In this document: positions 3,342-17,229 of the stretch, one piece after another
How the letters are laid out: each line of letters opens with the position of its first letter
Numbering within the stretch: the stretch's first letter is position 1
NCBI GenBank assembly: GCA_028717345.1
Contig: JAQUNZ010000024.1
Span: forward strand, 1-33,326
DNA: 33,326 nt
Source: Candidatus Methanoperedens sp.
Lineage (GTDB): Archaea; Halobacteriota; Methanosarcinia; Methanosarcinales; Methanoperedenaceae
Direction of reading: 5' to 3'
The notes under the pieces: model-generated
What the model saw: the letters and a program-made list of their open reading frames with translations, nothing else
Told to the model about the DNA's origin: nothing
Database searches by the model: none
Made by a program: the position numbers and the translations under genes

Positions 3342-4148
3342 ATGCCAGTTGACGATAAAATGCACTCTATCAAAGAAGCCCTGAAAGAAAAAGGCAGCGC
3401 CCTCATCGCATACTCAGGCGGCGTGGACAGCTCAGTACTGGCTGCGCTCGCTTACAGGGCGCTTGGGGATAAAGCTCTTGCAGTCACAGCTGACGCGCCG
3501 ACGCTTGCGCCGGGGGAGCTTGATGGTGCAAAACGGGTCGCAAAGGAGATAGGGATCAGGCACATGGTTATTTTTTATGACGAACTCGAAGAACCTGAAT
3601 TCGCAAAGAACCCGGTTGACAGGTGCTATTACTGCAAGAAAGGATTGATAAGGGAATTAAAGAAAATAGCGCAGCAGCACAGTATAAATACCATCATCGA
3701 GGGAACGAATTACTCAGACCTGAAATCACACAGACCGGGTCACAGGGCAGTCACCGAGGAAGGAATATACAATCCTTACATTGAGTTTGGCGTGACAAAG
3801 GAAGAGATACGCGAAATGGCTCGCAAACTCAAGCTCACAGTAGCAGATAAGCCTTCCATGGCCTGCCTATCCTCCCGTTTCCCTTACGGGCAGGCGATAA
3901 CCCGTGAGACGCTCAAAAGAGTGGGTGAAGCCGAAGCGTATCTTCGAAAGATGGGGTTTGAGGTTGTGCGCGTTCGCGACCACGATGGGATAGCGCGCAT
4001 TGAGATAATGGTTGATGAGATGCCAAAGTTCCTGGAAATGCGCGGCGCTATCGCCTCGGAGTTTAAAAAACTTGGTTTTTCCTATGTCACTCTCGATATC
4101 ATGGGATTCAGGAGCGGGAGTATGGATGAGGTGTTTCTTAAGTCATAG
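3342..4148 (+). CDS. larE: LarE-type ATP-dependent sulfur transferase
   Basis: A 268-residue PP-loop enzyme of the LarE family (TIGR00268). The SGGVDSS pyrophosphate-binding loop is at residues 25-31. LarE adenylates a nicotinate-derived dinucleotide and inserts sulfur on the way to the nickel-pincer nucleotide cofactor of lactate racemase, but archaeal members often lack larA nearby and may serve other sulfur insertions. Three cysteines stand out: CYYC (95 and 98) and the cysteine of ACLSSRFPYG (175). Known LarE proteins fall into a type that sacrifices its own cysteine and a type with three cysteines holding a [4Fe-4S] cluster that carries the sulfur; this one matches the latter. No larA, larB or larC is visible. 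The start could also be the ATG at codon 7; neither start has a good ribosome-binding site. Confidence 0.85.
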   Translation: MPVDDKMHSIKEALKEKGSALIAYSGGVDSSVLAALAYRALGDKALAVTADAPTLAPGELDGAKRVAKEIGIRHMVIFYDELEEPEFAKNPVDRCYYCKKGLIRELKKIAQQHSINTIIEGTNYSDLKSHRPGHRAVTEEGIYNPYIEFGVTKEEIREMARKLKLTVADKPSMACLSSRFPYGQAITRETLKRVGEAEAYLRKMGFEVVRVRDHDGIARIEIMVDEMPKFLEMRGAIASEFKKLGFSYVTLDIMGFRSGSMDEVFLKS

Positions 4149-4222
4149 TCAAGCTTTTTCCTAATGCCTTAAAACCTGACTTTATCAAAACCAGAAATTT
4201 GCTCAAATTAAAAAAATTATAC

Positions 4223-4230: not shown

Positions 4231-4258
4231 CTATGACAAAAATTAATAAGTGTATAAT

Positions 4259-7024
4259 ATGGATGAATCGACAAACCAATTTCCTGAACAAGCGGCAAGA
4301 GACAATATTGATAAACAGCTCCATGCCGCTGGATGGGCCGTGCAGGATAAGGATAAAATTGACTGGAATGAAAGTATTGGTATTGCTATCCGCGGATATC
4401 AGACTGATGTAGGTCCTACTGATTATTTATTATTTGTCGAAAGAAAACCTGTTGGACTAATAGAGGCAAAAAAAGAAGAAGAGGGGTCAAAACTCATATC
4501 TCATGAACCGCAAGCGGAAAATTATGCAACAAGTAAACTCAAATACCTTGATAATGATCAGCTTCCGTTTGTTTATGAAAGTACAGGAACTATAACCCGA
4601 TTCACTGATTACAGGGATCCAAAACCGCGTTCAAGACCTGTATTTACTTTTCATAGACCTGAAACTTTCAAAGCATGGCTGAAGGAGGGTAAATCTTTAA
4701 GAGCAAGACTGCTGGATATTCCCGGACTTCCCGAATCCGGTTTGAGAGACTGCCAGATAAAGGCAATAATAAATCTTGAAAAATCATTCAAAGAAAACAA
4801 GCCACGATCTTTGATCCAGATGGCTACAGGTGCTGGTAAAACCTACACTGCGATTACCTCTATTTACCGTTTGCTGAAATTTGCCAATGCAAAGCGGATA
4901 TTATTCCTGGTTGACACCAGAAACCTTGGAGAGCAGGCAGAACAGGAGTTTTTGGCATATCAACCATCTGACGATAACCGTAAATTTATGGAACTATATA
5001 ATGTTCAAAGGTTGCATTCAAACTATATTTCATCTGACAGCCAGGTATGCATAAGTACTATCCAGAGGCTTTATTCTATTTTGAAAGGTGAAGAACTGGA
5101 TGAAGAGGCAGAGGAGAAAAATCAGGATGAGACTAAATGGGAACCAAAAGAACCAATGCCGGTGGTTTATGATGAAAAGATACCGATAGAACAGTTTGAT
5201 TTTATTGTAATTGATGAATGCCACCGTTCCATATACAACCTGTGGAAACAGGTGCTGGATTATTTTGATGCCTTCCTTATCGGGTTAACTGCAACACCGG
5301 ATAAAAGGACTTTTGGTTTTTTCAATGAAAATGTTGTGAGTGAATATTCCCACGAGGAAGCTGTGGCAGACGGTGTAAATGTTGGATATGATGTTTATTT
5401 AATTGAGACCGAAATTTCACAACACGGAGCAAAGATAAAAGCCAAAGAATTTGTGGATAAACGCGAAAGGCTGAGCAGAAGGAAACGGTGGGAGCAACTG
5501 GATGAAGATGTTTCTTATTCTAAAAAAGAACTGGATAAAGATGTTGTCAATCCCAGCCAGATAAGAAATATCATCCGTGCTTTTAAAAATAAACTGCCTG
5601 AGATATTTCCGGGCAGAAAAGAAGTTCCGAAGACCCTGGTTTTTGCCAAAACCGACAGCCACGCTGATGATATTATTCAGATAGTCAGGGAAGAATTCAA
5701 TGAAGGTAATGAATTTTGTAATAAAATTACTTATAAAACTAAAGATGAAGACCCGAAATCTATACTCACGCGCTTTCGAAATGCCTATAACCCGAGAATT
5801 GCCGTCACCGTGGCTATGATCTCTGTCGGGATTGATGTCAAGCCTCTTGAATGTCTGCTCTTTATGAGAGATGTAAAAAGCAAAGGCTACTTTGAGCAGA
5901 TGAAAGGTCGCGGTACCCGCACATTCGGCTATGATGACTTGAAGAAGGTCACTCCCTCGGCGTTATCGGCAAAAACACATTTTGTTGTTGTGGATGCCGT
6001 TGGAGTTACAAAATCACTTAAAACTGACAGCCGCCCTCTGGAGCGAAAACGTTCAACTCCGATGAAGGAGCTTCTGGATGCTGTGACTATGGGAGTAAGG
6101 GATGAAGACCTGTTCATTTCACTTGCAGGGCGCCTTGCCAGACTGGAAAAACAACTTACTGACCAAGAAAAAGAAACATTTGAGGAAAAGGCAAAAGGGA
6201 AGACTCTAAGTGAGACGGTCAAAGACCTGTTGAATGCTTATAATCCTGATAAGATCGAAGAAAAAGCGCAGGTGCTGAAGAGAGAAAATCCTGAGATAAC
6301 AAAAATCCAGGCTCTTGATATGGCAAAGGAAAGTCTGGGCAAAACAGCAAGTTCAATCTTTAATGGAGAACTTAATAAATACATTGAAAATGTGTGCAGG
6401 GTTCATGAGCAGATCATTGACATTGTGAATATTGATAATGTTACAAAGGCGCAGTGGGGGAAAGATTCCTTAGATAAAGCAAGAGAAATTGTAAATGATT
6501 TTTCTAAATATATGGAAGAGCATAAGGATGAGATAATAGCACTCAGCATTTTTTATGATCAGCCATACCGGCTCAGGGAGTTGACTTCCAGTATGGTTAA
6601 AGATGTTCTTGAAAAATTGAGAATGGATAAGCCACTGCTTGCACCTCTGTACGTATGGCAGGCATACGAGCAGCTTGAAGAGGTGAACGGGAAAAGCCCG
6701 AAAAGTGAGCTGGTAGCTCTTGTTTCCCTTATCCGCAGGATAACAGGTTTGGATGATAAACTGACTGCCTATGATAAAACTGTGGACAGGAATTTCCAGA
6801 AATGGGTGTTTGAAAAGCAAGCCGGAGCATTAAAGTTCAATGAAGAGCAGATGGGCTGGCTGAGGATGATGAAAGAGCATATTGCTACGAGTTTTCATAT
6901 TGAGGTGGACGATCTGGACTACACGCCGTTTGACGCACACGGAGGACGCGGTATGATGTTTCAGTTATTTGGGAATGGAATGAACGAGGTGATCAGTGAA
7001 ATGAATGAGGCGCTGGCAGTATGA
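4259..7024 (+). CDS. hsdR: Type I restriction enzyme, R subunit
   Basis: The motor and endonuclease subunit of a type I restriction-modification complex, 921 residues from ATG 4259; a GTG three codons earlier is possible. The N-terminal PD-(D/E)xK nuclease motif is visible as D55 with E69-A-K71 (PTDYLLF...GLIEAKK). The superfamily 2 translocase follows: Walker A MATGAGKT at about 188-195, DECH box at about 319-322, LTATP about 25 residues later, and GRGTRTFG as motif VI. The C-terminal third is helical, as in EcoEI-type R subunits. It is the first gene of the island and overlaps the next gene (MNT) by ATGA, so the two are co-translated. Its partners hsdS and hsdM are separated from it by about 4.3 and 8.7 kb. 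The gene appears intact. Confidence 0.95.
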   Translation: MDESTNQFPEQAARDNIDKQLHAAGWAVQDKDKIDWNESIGIAIRGYQTDVGPTDYLLFVERKPVGLIEAKKEEEGSKLISHEPQAENYATSKLKYLDNDQLPFVYESTGTITRFTDYRDPKPRSRPVFTFHRPETFKAWLKEGKSLRARLLDIPGLPESGLRDCQIKAIINLEKSFKENKPRSLIQMATGAGKTYTAITSIYRLLKFANAKRILFLVDTRNLGEQAEQEFLAYQPSDDNRKFMELYNVQRLHSNYISSDSQVCISTIQRLYSILKGEELDEEAEEKNQDETKWEPKEPMPVVYDEKIPIEQFDFIVIDECHRSIYNLWKQVLDYFDAFLIGLTATPDKRTFGFFNENVVSEYSHEEAVADGVNVGYDVYLIETEISQHGAKIKAKEFVDKRERLSRRKRWEQLDEDVSYSKKELDKDVVNPSQIRNIIRAFKNKLPEIFPGRKEVPKTLVFAKTDSHADDIIQIVREEFNEGNEFCNKITYKTKDEDPKSILTRFRNAYNPRIAVTVAMISVGIDVKPLECLLFMRDVKSKGYFEQMKGRGTRTFGYDDLKKVTPSALSAKTHFVVVDAVGVTKSLKTDSRPLERKRSTPMKELLDAVTMGVRDEDLFISLAGRLARLEKQLTDQEKETFEEKAKGKTLSETVKDLLNAYNPDKIEEKAQVLKRENPEITKIQALDMAKESLGKTASSIFNGELNKYIENVCRVHEQIIDIVNIDNVTKAQWGKDSLDKAREIVNDFSKYMEEHKDEIIALSIFYDQPYRLRELTSSMVKDVLEKLRMDKPLLAPLYVWQAYEQLEEVNGKSPKSELVALVSLIRRITGLDDKLTAYDKTVDRNFQKWVFEKQAGALKFNEEQMGWLRMMKEHIATSFHIEVDDLDYTPFDAHGGRGMMFQLFGNGMNEVISEMNEALAV

Positions 7025-7317
7025 AAAAGAAAATTGACCGGATTATCATGAAACTTCGAGAAAATAAGCCAGTTCTTGAAGAAAAATACGGTGTAAAGAA
7101 CCTTGAAGTCTTTGGATCCTATATTCGCGGTGAACAGAAAAAAGGGAGTGACTTAGATGTTCTTGTGGAATTTTCAAAAAAGATTGACTTATTCAAATAT
7201 ATGGAACTTGAAGAGTTCATGAGCAAGAAACTTGGTGTTAAAGTTGACCTTGTAATGAAAGATACTCTAAAACCACGGATAAAGGACAGAGTATTGAAAG
7301 AGGCTATACCTGTATGA
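7021..7317 (+). CDS. MNT-type minimal nucleotidyltransferase (antitoxin-like)
   Basis: A 98-residue protein with the nucleotidyltransferase signature GSYIRGEQKKGSDLDVLVEF (Gly32-Ser33, with metal-binding Asp44 and Asp46), the form used by MntA antitoxins that AMPylate and silence HEPN toxins. It overlaps hsdR by four bases (ATGA). The expected HEPN partner is absent: immediately downstream, and again overlapping by ATGA, is only a 16-codon ORF (7314-7364, MKIEYAIQ...), which might be a remnant start of such a gene. Either the partner has been lost, or this protein acts on another target, possibly the restriction enzyme it is coupled to. Confidence 0.8.
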   Translation: MKKKIDRIIMKLRENKPVLEEKYGVKNLEVFGSYIRGEQKKGSDLDVLVEFSKKIDLFKYMELEEFMSKKLGVKVDLVMKDTLKPRIKDRVLKEAIPV

Positions 7318-7400
7318 AAATTGAATACGCTATACAAAGAGAGATTACTTTCACGGTGCTATGATAAAGGATATAATAATGGAACTATGAGGTTATTTTA

Positions 7401-8222
7401 ATGTTAACTAACAAAGAGAGGGCTATTCTTTATCTTTTGAACAATACGAATAAAATTTCAAAAATAAAGTTAGTGAAGCTCATGTTCTTGATGTCTGAAA
7501 AAATGAGCTTTTACAATTTCGTTCCATATAACTATGGGCCGTTCTCTTTTGAACTGTATCATGACTTATCCCACCTTGAAAAACAAGGATATATTTCAAT
7601 GGATGAAGAGTCTGTTTCTCTCATAAATAGGAACATTCCTCCACTGGAAAAAAATTCTGGATTCTTAATAAATGAACATTTCCAAAAATTTCTGAATTAT
7701 AATGATACTCAAATTCTGGATTATACATACTCAAAGCATCCCGAATATACAATTTTTAGCCATTATGATAAAAGAATGAGCTATTCGAGAGATTCAACCG
7801 GAATTGTTACCATAGGCTATGAAGGAAAATCCATTGATTCTTTCCTCTATGAACTTATTTTGAATAAGATTAATACGGTTTTGGATGTAAGAAAAAACGC
7901 ATACAGCATGAAATTTGGCTTTATGAAAAATAAACTGATCAATTATATGGGAAAAATCGGCATAGAATATTTGCACATGCCTGAACTTGGAATACCCTCT
8001 GATCAAAGAAAGAACCTCGATACATATCTGGATTACAAAGCCTTGTTCGCCGATTATGAGAAGGAACTTGCCGGGAAAACCACTTACATTGAAAGAATTA
8101 AGGAAATTGGTGCGGAGAAAAAAATCGCCTTGATGTGTTTTGAAAAGGACGCTAAATATTGTCACAGGGGAGTGATAGCAGAACGGTTGAGGAAAGACGG
8201 CATAGAGGTATGCAATATATGA
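7401..8222 (+). CDS. GPF-domain (YwgA/SocA-like) protein fused to DUF488
   Basis: A 273-residue two-domain protein behind a GAGGT ribosome-binding site. Residues about 1-125 form a helical domain with LVKLMFL, a YNYGPFSFELYHDLSHL segment and a terminal YSKHPEYTIFS segment; the same layout is found in the proteins at 9593 and 12910. It resembles the YwgA / SocA (DUF4065, 'Panacea') antitoxin-like domain, though that match is by eye. Residues about 134-273 are a DUF488 domain: TIGYEGKS, LDVRKNAYSMKFGFMK, PELGIPSD and CFEKDAKYCHRGVIAERL are its hallmarks. DUF488 has no firmly established activity; its conserved Cys/His motif suggests an enzyme. The fusion suggests that the first domain controls or neutralises the second. 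Confidence 0.75.
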   Translation: MLTNKERAILYLLNNTNKISKIKLVKLMFLMSEKMSFYNFVPYNYGPFSFELYHDLSHLEKQGYISMDEESVSLINRNIPPLEKNSGFLINEHFQKFLNYNDTQILDYTYSKHPEYTIFSHYDKRMSYSRDSTGIVTIGYEGKSIDSFLYELILNKINTVLDVRKNAYSMKFGFMKNKLINYMGKIGIEYLHMPELGIPSDQRKNLDTYLDYKALFADYEKELAGKTTYIERIKEIGAEKKIALMCFEKDAKYCHRGVIAERLRKDGIEVCNI

Positions 8223-8298
8223 CCTGGGAGAAGGAAATTGTCCCCGCTCTGAGTGGACAATTTGAAGAAAAATCAACAAAATGATTATAAAGTTATAC

Positions 8299-8306
8299 TT
8301 TATATA
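8299..8306 (+). promoter_or_regulatory. TATA box before the first TGT-like gene
   Basis: TTTATATA inside TTATACTTTATATA (8293-8306), an identical 14-nt core to that before hsdR. It sits in the only sizeable gap of this part of the island (8223-8372) and would start transcription near 8330, leaving a leader of about 40 nt with a GAGG ribosome-binding site before ATG 8373. The next genes follow without gaps, so it probably drives the TGT-like, GPF and PIN genes together. Confidence 0.5.
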
Positions 8307-8372
8307 TAATAAAAAAGGTTTAGACATATATAGATTTAATATTAGAAGCATGAGGTTTATTGTTGAGGAATT

Positions 8373-9596
8373 ATGACTTTTGTGGACATAGAGGAAGTTT
8401 CGAAGGAAAAAAACTCATTAGTACGTTCATGTAGAATAAAAATTAATGGAGGTACTATAATAACTCCTTCCAGAGCTGTTAGCGTCACTAAGTCCAAAAT
8501 TGAAGAACTAAAAGTATCCTCGACATTAATTAACAATCAATTCAGACCTTTTGGTGAGGTGTTTGTTCGCGTCCCATTGGATTTCTTAAGCAAAATAATA
8601 GATGATGATTATGAAGGTCAGAAATTTAGTTCAATGCTTGCAACTCGCTTGAGTCAATTGAAGGATGCAGGATTAGTCCCATATTTGATTCTTTCTTTGG
8701 TCGATAATGAAGATAATCTTTATAACAAGATGCCTCCACCACAAATTCTTGATCTTCTTTTTAATTTTATCTGGGGAACCCCGAACAATTCTATTATTGT
8801 ACCCCCTCTTATTGGAGTTCTCAACGAGGATAAAGAATATATCAAATACATTACTGCTTTGGAGAAAAGGCAGAAGGATCGTATTGATAAAAAGCCTCTG
8901 CCCATGATGGCAATTATTCCTCCTGTGTACCGATTAATTGCTCCAGAACTTCTGGAAAGGTATTGGAAAATTGGATGCCGCATCATTTCTTTCGATTTAG
9001 GGAATAAAAAATATAGCGCATTTGGTTATGTCATCGAAAAACTTCATTCTGAGTTGAATGTATTGAGTAAACGAGATAAAGAACCTTTTATTCTTCATGC
9101 CTTAAATTCAAAATTGAAAACTGGGAGAGGGGATACAAGTAGAATTAATGACTTATTGGGAACGGGGTTTGGATTTGATTCCTATGCCCCAAATCATGGA
9201 GGACGTCCAAAATGGATTCCTCCTCCAGCGCCTCCAACTGAATCCAACCATTTGTTTGATAGAAAAACTTATGGGTTTTTTTCGCTTTCGGATGTTATCT
9301 CCAATAAGACTATAGATCAAAAAGATGTGCTGAATACTTACGCATTTAAAAATGTTGAATTAGATTCAATTGTGGACCAAAAACCTGAAACAATAAAGCG
9401 AATCTGTTCAGCATATAATCTTGAAAAAACTATAGGAGAGATTCGGACTTTTCCAGAATTAATAAATAATGAAGAATTAATTAAATATTTTTCCAAAAAG
9501 GAACGTATTCAGGATGACCTGAAACTTATGAAAAACATTGCAGATAGAGGAATAATCTCTAAACAGCAAAAGAATCTGGATAAGTGGTTTGTATGA
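8373..9596 (+). CDS. TGT-like TIM-barrel protein, copy 1
   Basis: A 407-residue protein of a kind not firmly recognised, but with the layout of tRNA-guanine transglycosylases. The N-terminus has the R-x-K...G-x-I-x-TP pattern (TP at 31-32) that opens the TGT fold. Barrel strands then appear as IIPPV (181-185), ISFDLG (205-210), HALNSKLKTGRGD (242-254) and GFGFDS (265-270), the last aligning with the TGT segment that carries the nucleophilic Asp. The TGT zinc motif CxCx2C is missing. All these elements recur in the copy at 14041. It overlaps the next gene by ATGA, followed closely by a PIN nuclease. Base exchange on DNA or RNA (as by DpdA or TGT) is a guess, and the protein may instead only bind a nucleobase or nucleic acid. 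Confidence 0.6.
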   Translation: MTFVDIEEVSKEKNSLVRSCRIKINGGTIITPSRAVSVTKSKIEELKVSSTLINNQFRPFGEVFVRVPLDFLSKIIDDDYEGQKFSSMLATRLSQLKDAGLVPYLILSLVDNEDNLYNKMPPPQILDLLFNFIWGTPNNSIIVPPLIGVLNEDKEYIKYITALEKRQKDRIDKKPLPMMAIIPPVYRLIAPELLERYWKIGCRIISFDLGNKKYSAFGYVIEKLHSELNVLSKRDKEPFILHALNSKLKTGRGDTSRINDLLGTGFGFDSYAPNHGGRPKWIPPPAPPTESNHLFDRKTYGFFSLSDVISNKTIDQKDVLNTYAFKNVELDSIVDQKPETIKRICSAYNLEKTIGEIRTFPELINNEELIKYFSKKERIQDDLKLMKNIADRGIISKQQKNLDKWFV

Positions 9597-10075
9597 AAAT
9601 AAATGAAAATACTTTAACTTCAACTCAACTCGCGATAATTACGCTATTAAAAAGTAAAGATATCACTGGAATGGATTTTGCCCCGATTCCAGGTAATATT
9701 CATTTGGTAAAAGAGATTTTCGCAATAAAGAATACTGACATCGGAAAACAGCTGCTCGATGAATTGAACTTTGAGCCAGATAATTTTGGTCCTTTTGATG
9801 AGACAATTTTTGCTGCTCTGGATGACTTGAATAATGCAGGACTGGTGGAGTATGTTCAATCGAAAGGAGGTTCTAAGATCAAATTAACAAAGGAGGGTGA
9901 ACATTTCGCAGATACTATATGGAAAAAACTTCGCGAGGATGTTAAATCTATTATTACATATGTGAAATTAAATTTCAACCATATTTCTTCAGAAAAACTA
10001 CTCGATAGGATTTATTCAATTTACCCGGAAATGGCGAAATATTCCCTATCAAAAGTGGCCAAAAAATATCAATGA
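9593..10075 (+). CDS. GPF-domain (YwgA/SocA-like) protein, antitoxin candidate
   Basis: A 160-residue protein whose ATG (9593) overlaps the stop of the TGT-like gene as ATGA; a GTG at 9584 is less likely. It begins with a winged-helix-like region (LTSTQLAIITLL, LVKEIFAI), then FEPDNFGPFDETIFAALDDLNNAGL, a short wing (KIKLTKEG) and the C-terminal LLDRIYSIYPEMAKYS segment. The NFGPF...L..LNNAGL and Y..YPE elements are shared with the proteins at 7401 and 12910. It lies a few bases upstream of a PIN nuclease, the usual order of antitoxin then toxin, so it is probably the DNA-binding or neutralising partner. It has no UPF0175 tail, unlike its counterpart at 12910. Confidence 0.65.
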   Translation: MKINENTLTSTQLAIITLLKSKDITGMDFAPIPGNIHLVKEIFAIKNTDIGKQLLDELNFEPDNFGPFDETIFAALDDLNNAGLVEYVQSKGGSKIKLTKEGEHFADTIWKKLREDVKSIITYVKLNFNHISSEKLLDRIYSIYPEMAKYSLSKVAKKYQ

Positions 10076-10090
10076 TAGGAGATGCTATTT

Positions 10091-10564
10091 GTGGTGACTC
10101 TCTTTGGAGATACATGTTTCTTGATTGGATTAAAAGATAAGACTGATCAGCATCATACAGAGGCAATAAAAATCTGGAAGAGGTTACTAAGCACGAATGT
10201 AGTAAAAGGATTAAATCATGTCACCATTTCAGATTTTGTATTGATAGAGGTTTTTCAGGGTCTACAGAGCCATGCAGGATTTGAGACCGCTGCTGCTGTA
10301 TATAGTGAATTAACTGATAACTGTAGAGTTCAAAAGGTAACACTACCAATGGTGCAGCAGGCAATTAATCAAAAACTCGAACCTTATCGCAATCACAGAA
10401 CAAAACAACCACCAATAGGTCTTGTAGATGCAATATCTTTAGTCACAATGGACAAATTGAAAATTTCATGGATTCTGAGTTTTGATGAGGGTTTTGACCG
10501 AATTCCTTTAGTTAGAAGGATTCATAATGAAAATACGCTGCCATTTGATAAATCTGTTCGCTAA
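10091..10564 (+). CDS. PIN-domain ribonuclease, VapC-like toxin
   Basis: A 157-residue PIN-domain protein. The four acidic residues of the active site are visible as D7 (GDTCFLIGL), E53 (LIEVFQGLQ), D113 (GLVDAISL) and D132 (SFDEGFDRI). An AGGAG ribosome-binding site at 10077-10081 is well spaced for the GTG at 10091; the in-frame ATG at 10082 directly abuts it and is less likely. PIN toxins of the VapC family cleave tRNA or rRNA and are held inactive by a partner encoded just upstream, here the GPF-domain protein. The gene is part of the cassette that also contains the TGT-like protein, and all catalytic positions are intact. Confidence 0.8.
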   Translation: MVTLFGDTCFLIGLKDKTDQHHTEAIKIWKRLLSTNVVKGLNHVTISDFVLIEVFQGLQSHAGFETAAAVYSELTDNCRVQKVTLPMVQQAINQKLEPYRNHRTKQPPIGLVDAISLVTMDKLKISWILSFDEGFDRIPLVRRIHNENTLPFDKSVR

Positions 10565-10588
10565 GACTTTAAAAAAGTGGGAATTTTG

Positions 10589-11065
10589 ATGAACGTTTTA
10601 TTGTCAGTTAAACCAAAATATGCCGAAAAAATTGTCGAAGGAAAGAAAAAATACGAATTCAGACGAGCAATTTTTAAAAGACAGAATATAGAGAAAGTCT
10701 ATATTTATTCCAGTTCGCCGGTGAGTAAGATCGTTGCCACTTTCGAGATTGAAAAAATCTTAAAAGATACCCCGGAAAAAATATGGGCACTATGCCAAAA
10801 ATATGCCGGCATCTCAAAAAAGGATTTTTTCGACTATTTTAAAAATTCCGAACAGGCATTTGCAATTGAAATTGGGTATGTCAATAGTTTTCAAGAGCCA
10901 ATAGACCCATATCTTATTATTGAAGATTTCAAGCCCCCTCAGTCATTTTATTACTTGCCCAATGATTTTCTCCAGAACCAGTGGGACGTTGTTGATACTG
11001 AATTGGTCAAGCCCTCATTATCGATAGAATCAGTATCAGGAATTTCGTTCATTGGACATTTATGA
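10589..11065 (+). CDS. ASCH-domain protein
   Basis: A 158-residue protein whose N-terminus (LLSVKPKYAEKIVEGKKKYEFRR) is the hallmark of the ASCH / PUA-like fold, a beta-barrel that binds RNA or modified nucleotides. ATG 10589 is preferred over GTG 10577 because family members begin with M-x-V-L-L-S-x-K-P. ASCH proteins are often associated with toxin-antitoxin or nucleotide-modification genes, but few have a proven function. It follows the PIN toxin by 24 nt. A role in binding RNA, or a modified base, fits the TGT-like neighbour, but this is speculation. Confidence 0.7.
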   Translation: MNVLLSVKPKYAEKIVEGKKKYEFRRAIFKRQNIEKVYIYSSSPVSKIVATFEIEKILKDTPEKIWALCQKYAGISKKDFFDYFKNSEQAFAIEIGYVNSFQEPIDPYLIIEDFKPPQSFYYLPNDFLQNQWDVVDTELVKPSLSIESVSGISFIGHL

Positions 11066-11093
11066 ATATAGTTTATGCTAAATTATCAGGTCA

Positions 11094-11297
11094 GAAATCA
11101 CCGCAAAGTACGCAAAGATCGCAAAGCTCCACAATCCCTCCGACCGCATATCAAACGGCGCCGCCATCACGACGAAGAACACGGATGACACAGATTGCGC
11201 GGATTTTCACGGATCTGTGCGCATCAGCGTCATCCGCGCAATCCGTGTTCCATCGTAATTCATCTGCGTTTATCCGCGTTCATCTGCGGCTAATATT
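11094..11297. repeat. Intergenic palindromic / tandem repeat element
   Basis: A gene-free patch between the ASCH gene and hsdS made of repetitive DNA. It starts with three copies of a GCAAAG-type unit (11101-11127), continues with an inverted repeat whose arms are GAACACGGAT...TGCGCGGAT (from 11177) and ATCCGCGCAATCCGTGTTC (11232-11250), and ends with the tandem TCTGCG / TTATCCGCG / TTCATCTGCGG units (11262-11290). Similar non-coding families are scattered through many environmental genomes. An open frame across it (to 11331) is low-complexity and is not called as a gene. Confidence 0.6.
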
Positions 11298-11327
11298 TAG
11301 TAGAAAGACGCAGGAGGCGCTGGCAAG

Positions 11328-12815
11328 ATGAAAGAGGGCGCGCTGCATGAACTCCCAGGAGGCTGGGTCTGGACGAGGCTGGAAGACGCTTCTAAAGAAT
11401 TTATTGGAGGTGGAACACCTTCCCGACAGATTCCTGAATATTTTGGAGGAAATATTATTTGGCTTACACCAACTGAAGTGCCGAAAAATAAAATAGTAAT
11501 TTTAAAGGACTCAAAAGAAAAGATTACGGAATCAGGGTTGAAACATAGTTCAGCTAGAATAATTCCAAAAGATGCCGTGTTACTAACATCAAGAGCAAGT
11601 ATTGGTTATGTAGCTATAGCGGGTTGTGATGTCACTACAAACCAGGGTTTTGCTTCATTTGTTTGTTCTGACACAATTTACAATTTCTTTTTAGCCTACT
11701 GGCTGTGGGCAAACAAACGGTTGCTTGAATCGAATGCAACAGGAACTACATTCAAAGAAATCTCAAAATCAAAATTACGAGAATTTTATCTGCCCCTTCC
11801 TCCCCTCCCAGAACAACGAGCCATAGTCTCCAAAATCGAACAGCTTTTCAGCGATCTGGACAATGGAATAAATAACTTCAAAAAAGCACAGGCGCAGTTG
11901 AAGCTCTACCGCCAGTCAGTCTTAAAAGCCGCCTGCGAGGGCAAGCTCGTGCCAACCGAGGCTGAACTTGCGCGCGCGGAGGGGCGCGAGTACGAGGCGG
12001 CGGATGTGCTGCTGGGGCGCATATTGAAGGAAAAATGCGAAAAAAGCAATGGTGCGAAGTATAGAGAGCCTGTGGAGCCGGATACAAACGGGCTGTTGGG
12101 ACTTCCCGATGGGTGGGTATGGACAAAAGTTGGGGGGATTACAGAGAAAATTGAAAAGGTCTCACCGGAGGATGAACCTGAAGCGGAGTTTATATATCTG
12201 GATATTTCCTCTATTGATAACCGATATTTGAAAATCACTGAACCAAAGAAATATTTAGGTAAAGACGCCCCTTCAAGGGCAAAACAGAAAATGAAATGTG
12301 GCGATGTGTTGTTTTCAACAGTCCGAACTTATCTAAAAAATATAGCTCAAGTACCAAGCATATACGACGGACAAATTGCCTCAACTGGTTTTAGCATTCT
12401 TCGCCCTTCAATAGGAGTTAACGAAAATTTTCTGTTTTATTATGTTCAAACTGAAAAATTTCTAAATCCATTAACAGATATCCAGCGAGGCACGAGTTAT
12501 CCTGCTGTTCGTGACGGTGATGTTCGAGAGCAGTTTTTCCCTCTCCCTCCCCTCGCCGAGCAGCGCCGCATCGTTGCCGAGGTCGAGCGCCGCCTCTCAG
12601 TAAGCGACAAAATGGAAGAAACCATAGCAGAATCCCTCCTAAAAGCAGAATCCCTGCGCCAGAGCATCCTGAAAAAAGCCTTTGAGGGAAAACTGCTTAA
12701 CAAAAAAGAGCTGGAAAAAGCCCGTAATGCTTCTGATTGGGAGCCTGCCGGGAAACTGCTGGAGAGGATACGCCAGGAAAAAACACAGATAGGAGAAAAG
12801 AAGAGAAAAAGATAA
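11328..12815 (+). CDS. hsdS: Type I restriction-modification specificity subunit
   Basis: A 495-residue S subunit with two target-recognition domains. Each begins with GWVWT (LPGGWVWTRLED and LPDGWVWTKVGG) and each is followed by a conserved helix beginning PLPPLPEQRAIV or PLPPLAEQRRIV. TRD1 spans about residues 8-160, the first spacer helix about 160-215 (AQLKLYRQSVLKAACEGKLVP), TRD2 about 255-405 and the second helix about 405-460. It reads a bipartite DNA site and holds two HsdM subunits. An AGGAGG ribosome-binding site lies 10 nt before ATG 11328. The conserved helices are clearly richer in G and C than the TRDs, as expected when TRDs are exchanged between alleles. Its gene is flanked by toxin-antitoxin genes rather than by hsdM or hsdR. 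Confidence 0.95.
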   Translation: MKEGALHELPGGWVWTRLEDASKEFIGGGTPSRQIPEYFGGNIIWLTPTEVPKNKIVILKDSKEKITESGLKHSSARIIPKDAVLLTSRASIGYVAIAGCDVTTNQGFASFVCSDTIYNFFLAYWLWANKRLLESNATGTTFKEISKSKLREFYLPLPPLPEQRAIVSKIEQLFSDLDNGINNFKKAQAQLKLYRQSVLKAACEGKLVPTEAELARAEGREYEAADVLLGRILKEKCEKSNGAKYREPVEPDTNGLLGLPDGWVWTKVGGITEKIEKVSPEDEPEAEFIYLDISSIDNRYLKITEPKKYLGKDAPSRAKQKMKCGDVLFSTVRTYLKNIAQVPSIYDGQIASTGFSILRPSIGVNENFLFYYVQTEKFLNPLTDIQRGTSYPAVRDGDVREQFFPLPPLAEQRRIVAEVERRLSVSDKMEETIAESLLKAESLRQSILKKAFEGKLLNKKELEKARNASDWEPAGKLLERIRQEKTQIGEKKRKR

Positions 12816-12909
12816 AAATGTTACACAGCAATAATACTTTCGCGCCGCGCATACTAAAATGACATATATCAAAAAGAGCATTTGTTTGATTTACCGCAAG
12901 TGATTTCAA

Positions 12910-13497
12910 ATGGATATTAAAAAAAGGATACTGGAAAACCTGACTGAAACCCAAAAATATACCCTGTTACTCCTGAGTGCAAATAATTATGAACCGGTCA
13001 GAGGCAGACTCTGGTTTCAAAAGGAACTTTTTCTTTTAGCTAAAAACAGCGATGAACTTGCTGAGCAAACCGATTTTGAGGCTGATTTTATGGGTCCATA
13101 TAGTGAAAGCGCCGATGAGGAGCTTGAGCAGCTTGAATTTGCAAAAGTTGTTGAAAAAGAAGGAAATAAATTGAAACTTACCGGACTTGGCAGGGATATA
13201 GCGGAAATACTTGAAAAAAATTCTAGCGAAGAAGAAAAGGAAATGATTGAAGATTTTAAGTCTGAGCTTAATGATCTGACCGAAGATGAACTGCTTGGTT
13301 TCATATACTTTACTTATCCTGAAATGACCAGAGAATCTGTAAAGTTTGAAAAAATCAAGCCAAAAAGAATGAATATAGCATTAAGTTTGTATGCAAAAAG
13401 TAAAATCAGTCTCGGGAAAGCGCTTGAAATCGCTGGAATGAACATTGATACTTTTATTAAAGAAGCCAAACTGAAAGGAATTCAAATATATACTTAG
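12910..13497 (+). CDS. GPF-domain protein with UPF0175-like tail, antitoxin candidate
   Basis: A 195-residue protein with the same N-terminal domain as 7401 and 9593 (FQKELFLL, FEADFMGPYSESADEELEQLEFAKVV, KLKLTGLG, and LLGFIYFTYPEMTRESV). The last 42 residues (about 154-195; IALSLYAKSKISLGKALEIAG) form a UPF0175-like helix-turn-helix antitoxin tail. UPF0175 proteins commonly pair with DUF3368 PIN toxins, and such a toxin gene starts 10 nt after this one ends. The gene has no strong ribosome-binding site; a TATA-like CATATATCA lies near 12860-12870. It therefore joins the GPF domain to a known antitoxin module, supporting an antitoxin role for the whole GPF-domain family in this island. Confidence 0.75.
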   Translation: MDIKKRILENLTETQKYTLLLLSANNYEPVRGRLWFQKELFLLAKNSDELAEQTDFEADFMGPYSESADEELEQLEFAKVVEKEGNKLKLTGLGRDIAEILEKNSSEEEKEMIEDFKSELNDLTEDELLGFIYFTYPEMTRESVKFEKIKPKRMNIALSLYAKSKISLGKALEIAGMNIDTFIKEAKLKGIQIYT

Positions 13498-13507
13498 GTG
13501 CTTCTTT

Positions 13508-13993
13508 ATGAAAATCCTGGATTCGTCCCCTGTCATAGCTTTTTACTCAGAACTTGATAAGCTGGATTTGCTACATAAATTTCTAAAGTTAGGTCATGAA
13601 CTCAGGATTCCAAAAGGTGTTTTCGGTGAATTAGAGAACGGAAGAACCTCAGAAAAATTAAAATCAAGCATATCTGAAGGAAAAATCAAAATTCTGGAAG
13701 ACCTGCCATCCGAAGAGACTTTACACTTCAAAAACCGACATCCTTACCTTGGGATTGGAGAAATTGAAGTAATCCTGTGGTGGCTAAAACTCAAATCAGA
13801 TGCTAATAAACACTATTGCATCATTGACGATAAAAAAGCCAGAAAAGTCGCTGGAAAATATCAGGTTGCGTTTACGGGAACAATAGGTTTAATAGATTTA
13901 TTAGAGAAAAAACAGGCTATTACTCAGGATGAGCGCACAGAATATATTAATAAACTTTCAGTTTCAGGATTCAGGATAAAGGGGATATCATGA
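13508..13993 (+). CDS. DUF3368 PIN-like toxin
   Basis: A 161-residue protein of the DUF3368 branch of PIN nucleases. The family motifs are LDSSPVIAF (Asp5), FGELENG (Glu41), LGIGEIEVI (Glu85) and CIIDDKKAR (Asp107-Asp108), followed by FTGTIGLIDLL. These acidic residues form the expected metal-binding site, so it is probably an active ribonuclease. It follows the UPF0175-tailed protein by 10 nt, the standard pair. The TGT-like protein comes 47 nt downstream. This cassette thus has the order antitoxin, PIN, TGT-like, while the first cassette has TGT-like, antitoxin, PIN, and the two PIN proteins belong to different branches. Confidence 0.85.
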   Translation: MKILDSSPVIAFYSELDKLDLLHKFLKLGHELRIPKGVFGELENGRTSEKLKSSISEGKIKILEDLPSEETLHFKNRHPYLGIGEIEVILWWLKLKSDANKHYCIIDDKKARKVAGKYQVAFTGTIGLIDLLEKKQAITQDERTEYINKLSVSGFRIKGIS

Positions 13994-14040: not shown

Positions 14041-15219
14041 ATGTCAAAACATATCGAGTTCAAGAAGGTGTGTCCTGATGATGACACGTTATATATCACC
14101 AAAGAACTCCGTGTTAATGGGAAAAAATTAACAACGCCAATAAAATCGCTGGGGGTAAGCTCAAAGCTGGTATTTAATGATAAAATAAAAGGAGTAAATG
14201 AGTTTTATAAAAGATTCTCTTTAGATGAAAACTTAAAGAAAAATTCAGTTTATAGTGTTCTGAGTTCTCCAGAGAAATTGAGCGAGCTTAATTATAAATT
14301 TAACTCCCTGGTGAAAAAAACAGATACAGACAAGGAAATTAATCTCTGTTTTATTGAATACGATGACATGAAATACCCGGAAAAGAAACCACTGGAATTT
14401 ATTCTGGATACAGCATATGAATATTCTGATATTACTCCCTTACCGATTATATCCAATGTTGGCAAGCGTATTGATTCTGAAGAGAAATTCGAAAAATACA
14501 AAAAATTTTTGGAAGAATCTCTTGAAATTATCGATACCTTGAATCATAAACCTATAATGGGAATCGTACCGCCTGTTCAATTCTATATTAAAGAAATTGT
14601 TGAGTTATATGCGAAAAATGGTATCGACGCTTTTGTATTTGATTTTGATGGGAAAACACCATTAAGTATGCATCAGACTATTCGAAGTTTTATGCGTTCT
14701 TTAAGGGAACAGGATTTGTTAGAGAATAGTTTCATCCATTCAATTAATACAAATCAAGGACGCTTCAATAAAGAAGTTAATGTTGTTGGTGCAAAGGATA
14801 TTCTATCCTTCGGTCTTGGTTTTGACAGTATGGGTGAAAGACATAAACCTTTAAAGGGTCCGAAAGAATTTTTTGAAAAATTGAAAAATCGGGAAGATAA
14901 CAAACTCAGACTATTTAATAAAGATGATTATGGTTATTACAGATTGGGTATTAGCGAACTGGAGGAAATTTATCCCGCAGATTCGATTATTAAAAAAGAA
15001 TCATTTGTTAATGAAAAGTCAGATTTAAGAAACCTCCAGAAAAATTTCAATATGGAGCAGATAGGACTTGAAACTATTCGATTAAGGGATATTATTACTA
15101 ATCAGGAACCAAAGGAGTATCTATCTCATAAAACACAGGTCAAAAAAGAAGATTTCAAGAAGATTATAAAAATGAAAAAAGAAATTTCAAGAAAACATAG
15201 TCAATTGACATTATTTTAG
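14041..15219 (+). CDS. TGT-like TIM-barrel protein, copy 2
   Basis: A 392-residue paralogue of the protein at 8373, strongly diverged. Shared elements include the N-terminal NGKKLTTP motif (TP at 32-33), IVPPV (175-179), FVFDFDGK (198-205), FIHSINTNQGR (231-241) and FGLGFDSMGERH (257-268). The order and spacing match the barrel strands of tRNA-guanine transglycosylases, with FDS aligned to the FDC of the catalytic Asp, but the CxCx2C zinc site is absent. Between 13994 and 14040 an AT-rich stretch (ATAATATAAATATA) may provide a promoter with a leaderless start; no ribosome-binding site is visible. The gene is intact, and its repeated association with PIN and GPF-domain genes suggests a real functional link. 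Confidence 0.6.
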   Translation: MSKHIEFKKVCPDDDTLYITKELRVNGKKLTTPIKSLGVSSKLVFNDKIKGVNEFYKRFSLDENLKKNSVYSVLSSPEKLSELNYKFNSLVKKTDTDKEINLCFIEYDDMKYPEKKPLEFILDTAYEYSDITPLPIISNVGKRIDSEEKFEKYKKFLEESLEIIDTLNHKPIMGIVPPVQFYIKEIVELYAKNGIDAFVFDFDGKTPLSMHQTIRSFMRSLREQDLLENSFIHSINTNQGRFNKEVNVVGAKDILSFGLGFDSMGERHKPLKGPKEFFEKLKNREDNKLRLFNKDDYGYYRLGISELEEIYPADSIIKKESFVNEKSDLRNLQKNFNMEQIGLETIRLRDIITNQEPKEYLSHKTQVKKEDFKKIIKMKKEISRKHSQLTLF

Positions 15220-15261: not shown

Positions 15262-15594
15262 ATGTCTGAAAGTAAATTGGAGGAAGCGATTAAATTTCTC
15301 GGAAGATGCCTGAAAGAAAAAGGATTGAAGGTTTCAAAGATAATTTTATTTGGATCACAGGTCAAAGGAAAAACCACTGAGGAAAGCGATGTTGATATTC
15401 TTATTATCTCAGAAGATTTTAGCGGCAAAGACATTTTTGAAAGGGCGAGATTAACCAAATACGCTGAAATAATGACTCTTAAGAAATTCATGATGCCTCT
15501 TGATATTGTTACCCTGACATCGGAAGAGTTTGAGCGCGGAACTTCCCTCGTTGTTGAATATGCTAAAAGGGGGAAAGTAATGTATGCCGCATAA
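15262..15594 (+). CDS. MNT-type minimal nucleotidyltransferase
   Basis: A 110-residue protein with GSQVKGKTTEESDVDILII: Gly31-Ser32 and the metal-binding pair Asp43 and Asp45 of minimal nucleotidyltransferases. A GGGTG ribosome-binding site lies just upstream of ATG 15262. As with the MNT gene at 7021, no HEPN partner is adjacent. The C-terminal half is longer than in the first copy and the two are only similar in the catalytic region. It closes the second cassette, so the two MNT genes bracket the toxin-antitoxin-like material in the island. Confidence 0.8.
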   Translation: MSESKLEEAIKFLGRCLKEKGLKVSKIILFGSQVKGKTTEESDVDILIISEDFSGKDIFERARLTKYAEIMTLKKFMMPLDIVTLTSEEFERGTSLVVEYAKRGKVMYAA

Positions 15595-15741: not shown

Positions 15742-17229
15742 ATGACCAACACAAGTGCCATAATATCAAAAGTATGGAGTTACGCACACGTACTCCGGGA
15801 TGCTGGTGTCGGCTACGGCGACTATCTGGAACAGTTGACATATCTGCTTTTTCTGAAAATGGCAGATGAATATTCAAAATCACCGTATGACCGTAAACTT
15901 CCGATCCCGGAAAAATATAAATGGGGAAGTCTGGTATCGAAAAAAGGCGCTGACCTGGAATCACATTATACAGAACTTCTCCGTGAATTAAGCCAGGCAA
16001 GGGGCATCCTTGGACAGATATTTACAAAATCCCAGAACAAGATACAGGATCCGGCTATGCTATCTCGCATCATAGGCATGATAGATAATGAGAATTGGAG
16101 CATGATGGGTACTGATGTTAAAGGGAAAATCTATGAAGGACTTCTTGAAAAAAATGCAGAGGATGTGAAAAGCGGAGCTGGTCAGTATTTCACTCCCCGT
16201 TCCCTTATCATGGCAATGGTTGAATGCATTCATCCTGAACCTGAAAAAACGATATGCGATCCTGCATGTGGAACAGGTGGCTTCTTCCTTGCATCTTATG
16301 ATTTCTTAAGCAATCCCAGGAATTACCGTTTGAATAAAGAGCAGAAGGAATTTCTCAAAGACAAAACCTTTTCGGGAAATGAGATCGTTGCAGGCGCAAG
16401 AAGAATGTGCCTTATGAATATGTTCCTTCATAACATTGGCGAAATTGATGGTGAATCGTATATATCACCAACGGATTCCCTTATATCCGTTCCAAGCGAC
16501 CGTTATGATTATGTTTTGACTAATCCACCTTTTGGTAAAAAAAGCAGCATGTCCTTTACAAATGAAGAAGGCGAACAGGAAAAAGAAGACCTTGTTTATA
16601 ATCGCCAGGATTTCTGGGCAACCAGTTCTAACAAGCAGTTGAACTTTTTGCAGCATATCCATACTATCCTGAAATCAGATGGATGCGCCGCCGTTGTTCT
16701 GCCTGACAATGTACTGTTTGAAGGAGGAGCCGGTGAGACTGTCCGTAAAAACCTGCTTGCATCAACAGATCTGCATACAATTTTAAGACTTCCGACAGGT
16801 ATTTTTTACAAACAGGGCGTAAAAGCAAATGTTCTCTTTTTTGAGAATAAGCCCGCAAGCAAAACCCCCTGGACAAAAGAGGTATGGATATATGATTTTC
16901 GTACCAATATTCATTTTACATTGAAAGAGAACACGATGAAATTCGAGGATTTAAAGGATTTTATCAAATGTTACAATCCTGAAAACAGGCATAAAAGAAA
17001 AGAAACATGGTCACAGGACAATCCGAATGGGCGGTGGAGAAAAATCTCATATGAGGAAATAGTTTCAAGAGATAAAACAAACCTTGATATTTCCTGGGTA
17101 AAAGATGAAAGCCTTGCTGATCTGGATAACTTGCCTGACCCGGATATACTGGCAAATGAGATTATTGAAAATGTAGAAGCCGGACTTGAGGGATTTAAAG
17201 AAATAGTCGAAACGATAAATGGCGAATGA
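15742..17229 (+). CDS. hsdM: Type I restriction-modification DNA methyltransferase
   Basis: A 495-residue N6-adenine methyltransferase subunit. The N-terminal HsdM helical domain (YGDYLEQLTYLLFLKMADE) is followed by the SAM-binding motif DPACGTGGF at about 173-181 and the catalytic NPPF at 261-264; GAGQYFTPRSLI just before motif I is also characteristic. The C-terminal part is intact (NLDISWVKDESLADLDNL). Together with HsdS it would methylate the host DNA, and with HsdR it restricts foreign DNA. There is no clear ribosome-binding site before ATG 15742; an inverted repeat separates it from the cassette upstream, so it may have its own promoter. Confidence 0.95.
   Translation: MTNTSAIISKVWSYAHVLRDAGVGYGDYLEQLTYLLFLKMADEYSKSPYDRKLPIPEKYKWGSLVSKKGADLESHYTELLRELSQARGILGQIFTKSQNKIQDPAMLSRIIGMIDNENWSMMGTDVKGKIYEGLLEKNAEDVKSGAGQYFTPRSLIMAMVECIHPEPEKTICDPACGTGGFFLASYDFLSNPRNYRLNKEQKEFLKDKTFSGNEIVAGARRMCLMNMFLHNIGEIDGESYISPTDSLISVPSDRYDYVLTNPPFGKKSSMSFTNEEGEQEKEDLVYNRQDFWATSSNKQLNFLQHIHTILKSDGCAAVVLPDNVLFEGGAGETVRKNLLASTDLHTILRLPTGIFYKQGVKANVLFFENKPASKTPWTKEVWIYDFRTNIHFTLKENTMKFEDLKDFIKCYNPENRHKRKETWSQDNPNGRWRKISYEEIVSRDKTNLDISWVKDESLADLDNLPDPDILANEIIENVEAGLEGFKEIVETINGE

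Follow-up and report, generated by a model that had tools for sequence, protein, structure and literature searches.

Panacea-like domains, PIN nucleases and transglycosylase-like proteins in a type I restriction operon of Candidatus Methanoperedens

Antitoxins of the Panacea type are known chiefly from two-gene pairs, and the cue to which the Panacea domain responds is an open question. Several other described systems resemble parts of the locus analyzed here: the combination of UPF0175 with DUF3368 has been described as a putative composite of antitoxin and toxin (PMC6929052); PrrC of EcoprrI is an RNase that is kept silent by the linked type I enzyme and freed by a phage anti-restriction peptide (PMC2610378); and DpdA is a homolog of tRNA-guanine transglycosylases (TGTs) that edits DNA (PMC6884629), with further TGT homologs being present in BREX-related capture systems (PMC12839542). 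The stretch under study, hereafter called the window, comprises 33,326 nucleotides and represents one complete contig (G000:C24) of a 2.5 Mb Candidatus Methanoperedens genome. It encodes three copies of a Panacea-like domain, here termed GPF, at positions 7401, 9593, and 12910.

The reading that we favor, with moderate confidence, is that the copies at 9593 and 12910 each provide the Panacea-like antitoxin of a three-gene toxin-antitoxin (TA) module, alongside a PIN protein and a TGT-like protein, within a type I restriction-modification (R-M) operon, and that the copy at 7401 represents a separate module. An earlier note on this DNA had described three copies with three different partners. 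While this is correct, both PIN-associated copies share a second partner, encoded by the homologous genes at 8373 and 14041, which the note did not mention; besides this TGT-like gene, it overlooked that the locus is an hsd operon and that this setting recurs.

A domain family related to Panacea and DarG

Judged by their sequences, the domains at 7401, 9593, and 12910 are one homologous family. Those at 9593 and 12910 share 34% identity (BLASTP, E 1e-17), and 7401 is a more distant copy, which reached only E 2e-4 against 9593 and showed no similarity to 12910 detectable by BLASTP; its alignment scores lie 6-7 standard deviations over those of shuffled sequences. Hidden Markov models (HMMs) from which the tested subfamily had been excluded recovered all three copies (leave-one-family-out E 7e-13 for 7401, 7e-25 for 9593, and 1e-28 for 12910), compared to a best E of 0.0043 among 737 decoy open reading frames (ORFs) and reversed sequences. 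Invariant in 13 relatives are the first-helix lysine, the G-P pair in the turn, and, in the tail, the tyrosine and the serine. The shared motifs pointed out in the earlier note are, therefore, genuine, and the homology exceeds chance. The same applies to the ORF positions and architectures that had been read from the DNA: a DUF488 fusion (PF04343), a lone domain before a PIN protein (PF01850), and a domain with a UPF0175 tail (PF03683) before a DUF3368-type PIN protein were all confirmed. No relatives of the 9593 protein were found in viral contigs, which were scanned with that protein alone.

Matches to the Pfam family SocA_Panacea (PF13274, DUF4065) were obtained at E 0.007-0.02, with 17.8 bits for the copy at 7401 and 16.0 and 16.8 bits for the other two, all under the curated cut-off of 25.7 bits, so that the three domains are to be considered relatives of PF13274 rather than members. 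The profile of the GPF family aligned with that of Panacea proteins from the same order (hhalign 96%, E 4e-9), the comparison set consisting of genuine proteins, most of them over the PF13274 cut-off. Furthermore, a bridge protein (G054:C52), which was found by the 9593 sequence and adjoins a ParE/RelE-like gene, passes this cut-off at 34.3 bits. AlphaFold modeled 12910-13497 with confidence (predicted local distance difference test, pLDDT, 92), and the GPF model agrees with the published Panacea architecture of helices and one hairpin (PMC10440598). The best solved match of this model is the C-terminal domain of DarG in the DarTG complex 7yk3 (Foldseek probability 1.00, E 9e-3, template modeling (TM) score 0.46-0.48), which is also the top PDB sequence-profile match of the GPF domain (E 1e-3). 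The GPF family is a relative of these domains, that is, a sister group within the Panacea/DarG-C-terminal superfamily of antitoxin and sensor domains. The suggestion that a relative of SocA/Panacea is being used promiscuously is thus upheld by the hhalign result, the bridge protein, the DarG fold match, and the varied partners, with the restriction that no copy reaches the Panacea cut-off.

Besides profile homology, the GPF family shares with SocA/Panacea, including PanA, a compact domain of helices plus a beta hairpin, the conserved G-P turn, a range of unrelated toxin neighbors, and the fusion to MqsA-like zinc domains. It differs in its lower Pfam scores and in the set of fusions that it carries (UPF0175, DUF488, or MqsA-like), and most of its PIN and DUF4258 modules include a TGT-like third gene, whereas the accessory genes of PanA are sporadic. 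DarG is an antitoxin as well, but it is recognized by a macrodomain and a neighboring DarT, whereas GPF proteins lack the macrodomain, no DarT adjoins them, and the toxins are nucleases; the match is restricted to the C-terminal region of DarG. Matches of the GPF domain to DUF4364, ABC-3C MC2, LmuC, and eS19 were weak and dismissed as a resemblance at the level of winged helices only.

Toxin partners and a TGT-like third gene

GPF genes were classified in approximately 70 loci. In class i (22 loci), the domain is fused to DUF488, while in class ii (6 genomes), a lone domain precedes a VapC-type PIN protein. Class iii, in which a GPF domain with a UPF0175 tail precedes a DUF3368 PIN protein, was found in approximately 20 genomes from Methanoperedens, ANME-2, Methanosarcina, Methanolobus, Methanoculleus, and Methanofastidiosum. 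In class iv, GPF carries an MqsA-like zinc domain and either adjoins DUF4258 (MqsR-like) or is fused to it; GPF lies downstream of a 158-163-amino-acid protein with CxxC motifs in class v; and class vi comprises ParE, HD, and other PIN partners. The promiscuous pairing predicted in the earlier note was, therefore, borne out by the profile search and the neighbor tally, with PIN, DUF3368, DUF4258, ParE, HD, and fused DUF488 as partners. Within both PIN sets, the acidic residues are invariant (D10, E56, D116, and D135 in the 10082 set; D5, E41, E85, and D107 in the DUF3368 set), and GPF is repeatedly fused to known antitoxin parts, namely UPF0175 and the MqsA-like zinc domain. The tandem of UPF0175 tail and DUF3368 PIN protein corresponds to VapBC systems (UPF0175/COG2886 antitoxin, DUF3368/COG2405 PIN); unlike these, the 12910 antitoxin bears an N-terminal Panacea-like domain, and a TGT-like gene follows as third gene.

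Three peculiar arrangements were noted among these loci. The class v protein of L123-L126 (e.g., L124 8565-9041), with CxxCG...CxxC, occupies the toxin position upstream of GPF in modules that also contain a TGT-like gene, and has no Pfam match above noise. In L097 (G071, 7089-9925), a DUF4258 toxin, an MqsA-like zinc domain, and GPF are united in a single protein, whose gene is flanked by bona fide QueC on one side and by a TGT-like gene with the zinc site on the other. Moreover, L053 (G054) contains a decayed module: through an in-frame deletion, the DUF3368 PIN protein has kept only its N-terminal half, which runs on into the C-terminus of the TGT-like protein (8646-9029).

The proteins encoded at 8373 and 14041 are paralogs (24% identity, E 1e-13), for which no Pfam, NCBIfam, or PHROGs family was found. 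The family was sampled in archaea and, for bacteria, in plasmid and phage records; some copies in metagenome-assembled genomes are frameshifted or truncated, and the identical copies in G203, G204, and G208 were treated as one event. A GPF gene lies on the same strand, at most 2 genes away, in 35 of 41 loci. The other 6 comprise a copy split by a frameshift (L052), one at a contig edge (L049), one whose nearest GPF gene is five genes off (L111), and three without GPF. The TGT-like gene comes first in class ii modules and last in classes iii-v, and this variable order shows that its link to GPF is not a single frozen operon. In modules of the lone-GPF and the MqsA type, neighboring reading frames overlap or adjoin directly. 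Where the accompanying toxins are recognizable, they are of RNase types. A search of phages, viral contigs, and plasmids for the family resulted in a single find, on the Haloarcula plasmid CP050016.1, where the gene (L179, 5965-7179) has no recognizable GPF neighbor. We found no paper that links TGTs, toxin-antitoxin systems, and PIN proteins.

The first clue to the identity of this third gene was an N-terminal T-P motif typical of TGTs. The top Foldseek matches of the 14041 model are tRNA-guanine transglycosylases over the full length (E 4e-4), with TM scores of 0.42-0.47 on a model of pLDDT 60; structure predictions were built from 13-15 sequences. One subfamily (subfamily 3: L097, L121, L122, L127, and L128) possesses a CxCxxC...H zinc site, which is absent from the window paralogs. 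At this same C-terminal zinc region, matches to the TGT family PF01702 were found below threshold (L128, E 0.0014; L127, E 0.045; L097, E 0.08), with the best relative, L128, at 18.2 bits compared to a curated cut-off of 26.3 bits, and the window paralogs having no match. While the zinc-bearing subfamily aligns with canonical TGTs only across the zinc region (hhalign E 2e-5), it aligns with the window paralogs over the full length (hhalign 96%, E 4e-9). A further hint is that QueC is the neighbor of one module. An aspartate occupies the position of the TGT nucleophile (G-x-D) in 13 of 14 aligned proteins, an equivalence that depends on the alignment. We, therefore, regard a TGT fold as likely for the 8373/14041 family, and catalysis as no more than putative. 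The family resembles TGT and DpdA (PF01702) in the T-P motif, the full-length fold match of the low-confidence model, the aspartate at the nucleophile position, and the zinc site of subfamily 3; it differs in its scores under the Pfam cut-off, the lack of the zinc site in the window paralogs, the apparently changed base-recognition residues, and the antitoxin that almost always adjoins. Two further groups of matches, to ankyrin/DARPin proteins among PDB sequences for 14041 (a single 26-residue stretch) and to PPR proteins for 8373, were judged to be due to chance.

The restriction operon and the competing explanations

The genes listed here, between 4250 and 17229, are all encoded on the + strand, and the GPF/PIN modules are embedded within the type I restriction operon. 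The features are as follows, the names HsdR, HsdS, and HsdM resting on our own reading of the ORFs.

4250-7024, + strand: HsdR, restriction subunit of the type I R-M system; HsdR homologs of 52-72% identity adjoin related modules
7021-7317, + strand: MNT-type nucleotidyltransferase (PF01909, E 2e-17), absent from the syntenic locus of genome G006
7401-7806, + strand: GPF (Panacea-like) domain 1, at the N-terminal end of the fusion with DUF488
7807-8222, + strand: DUF488 domain, C-terminal part of the fusion (PF04343, E 5e-25; motifs IGYEG, DVR, and CFE-x5-CHR invariant)
8373-9596, + strand: TGT-like protein 1, 407 amino acids, with the putative nucleophile Asp269 (9177-9179); conserved with GPF and PIN in 6 genomes
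9593-10075, + strand: GPF (Panacea-like) protein 2, stand-alone, its start overlapping the end of the preceding gene
10082-10564, + strand: VapC-type PIN ribonuclease-like putative toxin (PF01850, E 1e-9)
10577-11065, + strand: ASCH-domain protein (PF04266, E 3e-5; PADLOC candidate PDC-M11B, E 5e-51), retained beside the PIN module in G006
11328-12815, + strand: HsdS, specificity subunit, with homologs at related loci
12910-13341, + strand: GPF (Panacea-like) domain 3
13366-13497, + strand: UPF0175 tail of the same protein (VapB-like antitoxin/helix-turn-helix part; PF03683, E 8e-9, above cut-off, residues 153-193)
13508-13993, + strand: DUF3368/COG2405-type PIN putative toxin (PADLOC PDC-S70, E 4e-20)
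14041-15219, + strand: TGT-like protein 2, 392 amino acids, with the putative nucleophile Asp262 (14824-14826)
15262-15594, + strand: second MNT-type nucleotidyltransferase (PF01909, E 9e-13)
15742-17229, + strand: HsdM, methylation subunit; HsdM proteins of 60-80% identity adjoin related modules

MNT-type genes are normally paired with HEPN genes; the two in this R-M operon are orphans without a HEPN partner.

In about ten genomes, modules lie within or next to the genes of type I R-M systems, in varied arrangements such as HsdR-HsdM-[module]-HsdS (L124). Furthermore, the GPF-DUF3368-TGT-like module of G203, G204, and G208 (L095, L094, and L093) lies downstream of HmaA in an HmaABC defense system, with HmaB and HmaC coming next wherever the contig is long enough, and a module of G168 is located beside a DrmMI/type IIG-like protein. 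With PrrC-EcoprrI, the window shares RNase-type toxin genes inside an hsd operon; the nuclease family and the antitoxin differ, the latency imposed by the R-M enzyme is a feature of PrrC, and no match to PrrC or RloC was found among the scanned window proteins.

From the sequence homology, the recurring gene neighborhoods, the resemblance in fold, and the catalytic residues that are kept, we infer a mechanism in which the PIN RNases (10082 and 13508) would be held inactive by the Panacea-like antitoxin, with the UPF0175 tail of 12910 probably adding neutralization or DNA binding. The GPF domain may act as neutralizer (9593) and/or, as proposed for Panacea (PMC10440598), as sensor; upon a cue such as infection or the loss of the restriction complex, it would release the RNase to cut RNA. 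The TGT-like protein may bind RNA via its TIM barrel and either exchange a base, thereby marking or protecting the RNase target, or present RNA to the nuclease. More tentatively, and in our estimation with less than an even chance of being correct, the modules could represent an archaeal three-gene TA class with an obligate base-exchange enzyme of the TGT family, which rewrites a base in the RNA target of the PIN or MqsR-like toxin or reads the state of infection by it; the Panacea-like domain would be the common sensor, and the partner under guard would be the adjacent restriction or Hma system. What distinguishes the modules is that one constant base-exchange-like third protein is tied to a Panacea-like domain across several unrelated RNase toxins, and that they recur in restriction operons. 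If the third protein does act on the RNA target of the toxin or report its state, this would provide a concrete candidate for the Panacea cue.

Several observations weigh against the three-gene modules as favored here. The link to TGTs is based on a model of pLDDT 60 with TM scores under the usual 0.5, and the direct hhalign comparison of the window proteins with canonical TGTs yielded no significant match, so that the connection goes via subfamily 3 and the fold. The residues of the guanine site (equivalents of Asp156 and Gln203) appear to be replaced, and with base recognition apparently lost, the TGT-like protein may be a non-catalytic TIM barrel. In addition, three of the 41 TGT-like genes (L127 and L128 of Methanosarcina and that on the Haloarcula plasmid) have no GPF neighbor, and many modules are not adjacent to R-M genes. 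For Panacea itself, third genes are described as sporadic and accessory, and a role as sensor rather than neutralizer is favored in the presence of further antitoxin domains (PMC8832971, PMC10440598). It is conceivable, if rather improbable, that the locus contains ordinary two-gene Panacea pairs in a defense island, with the TGT-like gene as a frequent but functionally unrelated passenger: Panacea antitoxins pair with many toxins (PMC8832971), defense islands collect unrelated genes, and modules devoid of a TGT-like gene exist (those with DUF488, ParE, HD, or the L202 VapC). However, the TGT-like gene stays with GPF while the toxin varies among three or more unrelated types; this holds for varied gene orders and across several archaeal orders, with overlapping frames, and both paralogs persist in the same operon, each beside its own antitoxin subtype.

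Two further explanations assign the TGT-like protein an activity of its own. It could modify DNA in the manner of DpdA, providing a second self-mark for the R-M or Hma locus, with PIN protein and antitoxin as a guard. While the location of modules within R-M, Hma, and DrmMI/type IIG-like loci, the precedents of DpdA and the BREX-related capture systems, and the bona fide QueC gene (E 1e-57) that adjoins one module are in line with this, QueC neighbors only one of the examined modules, no DpdB or DpdC partner was seen in them, and both the RNase types of the recognizable toxins and the apparent loss of the base-recognition residues render it unlikely. Still less probable is that the TGT-like protein is the effector and the PIN/DUF3368 protein a part of the antitoxin complex. 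L096, which has GPF and TGT-like genes but no PIN gene, would fit such an arrangement, yet this locus may be a remnant, the acidic residues of the PIN proteins are fully retained, and the UPF0175-DUF3368 composite is already described with the PIN protein as putative toxin. The three-gene module with a PIN toxin thus remains the reading that we prefer for 9593 and 12910.

The DUF488 fusion

The entire protein encoded at 7401-8222 matches the PADLOC candidate PDC-M19A (E 1e-78), and the CFE-x5-CHR motif of its DUF488 part is invariant among GPF-DUF488 fusions. Since the fusion is missing from the otherwise syntenic G006 locus, it does not belong to the PIN modules. We regard it instead as a separate module that is complete in itself, with the GPF domain controlling the fused putative effector. 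That the fusion is a defense effector to which a Panacea-like sensor is attached in cis, with no relation to the PIN modules, appears moderately probable to us and is compatible with the three-gene reading of the other two copies. The PDC-M19A match argues for this, as does the fact that 18 of the 22 DUF488 fusion loci continue with the same 250-amino-acid protein, PDC-M19B. However, PDC-M19B is not adjacent to the copy at 7401, and none was detected in its genome, an empty search being weak evidence; the 7401 copy may, therefore, be inactive or use another partner. The toxicity of DUF488 is itself only putative, and literature searches on DUF488 function gave nothing.

Two observations concern the fusion beyond the window. 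The phage family phrog_14939, of unknown function, matches nearly all of the GPF-DUF488 protein (E 7e-41), so that viruses carry the fusion as well. Furthermore, in L196 (G181, 3599-4171), DUF488 has been lost through an apparent in-frame deletion, and GPF continues straight into the C-terminal half of PDC-M19B.

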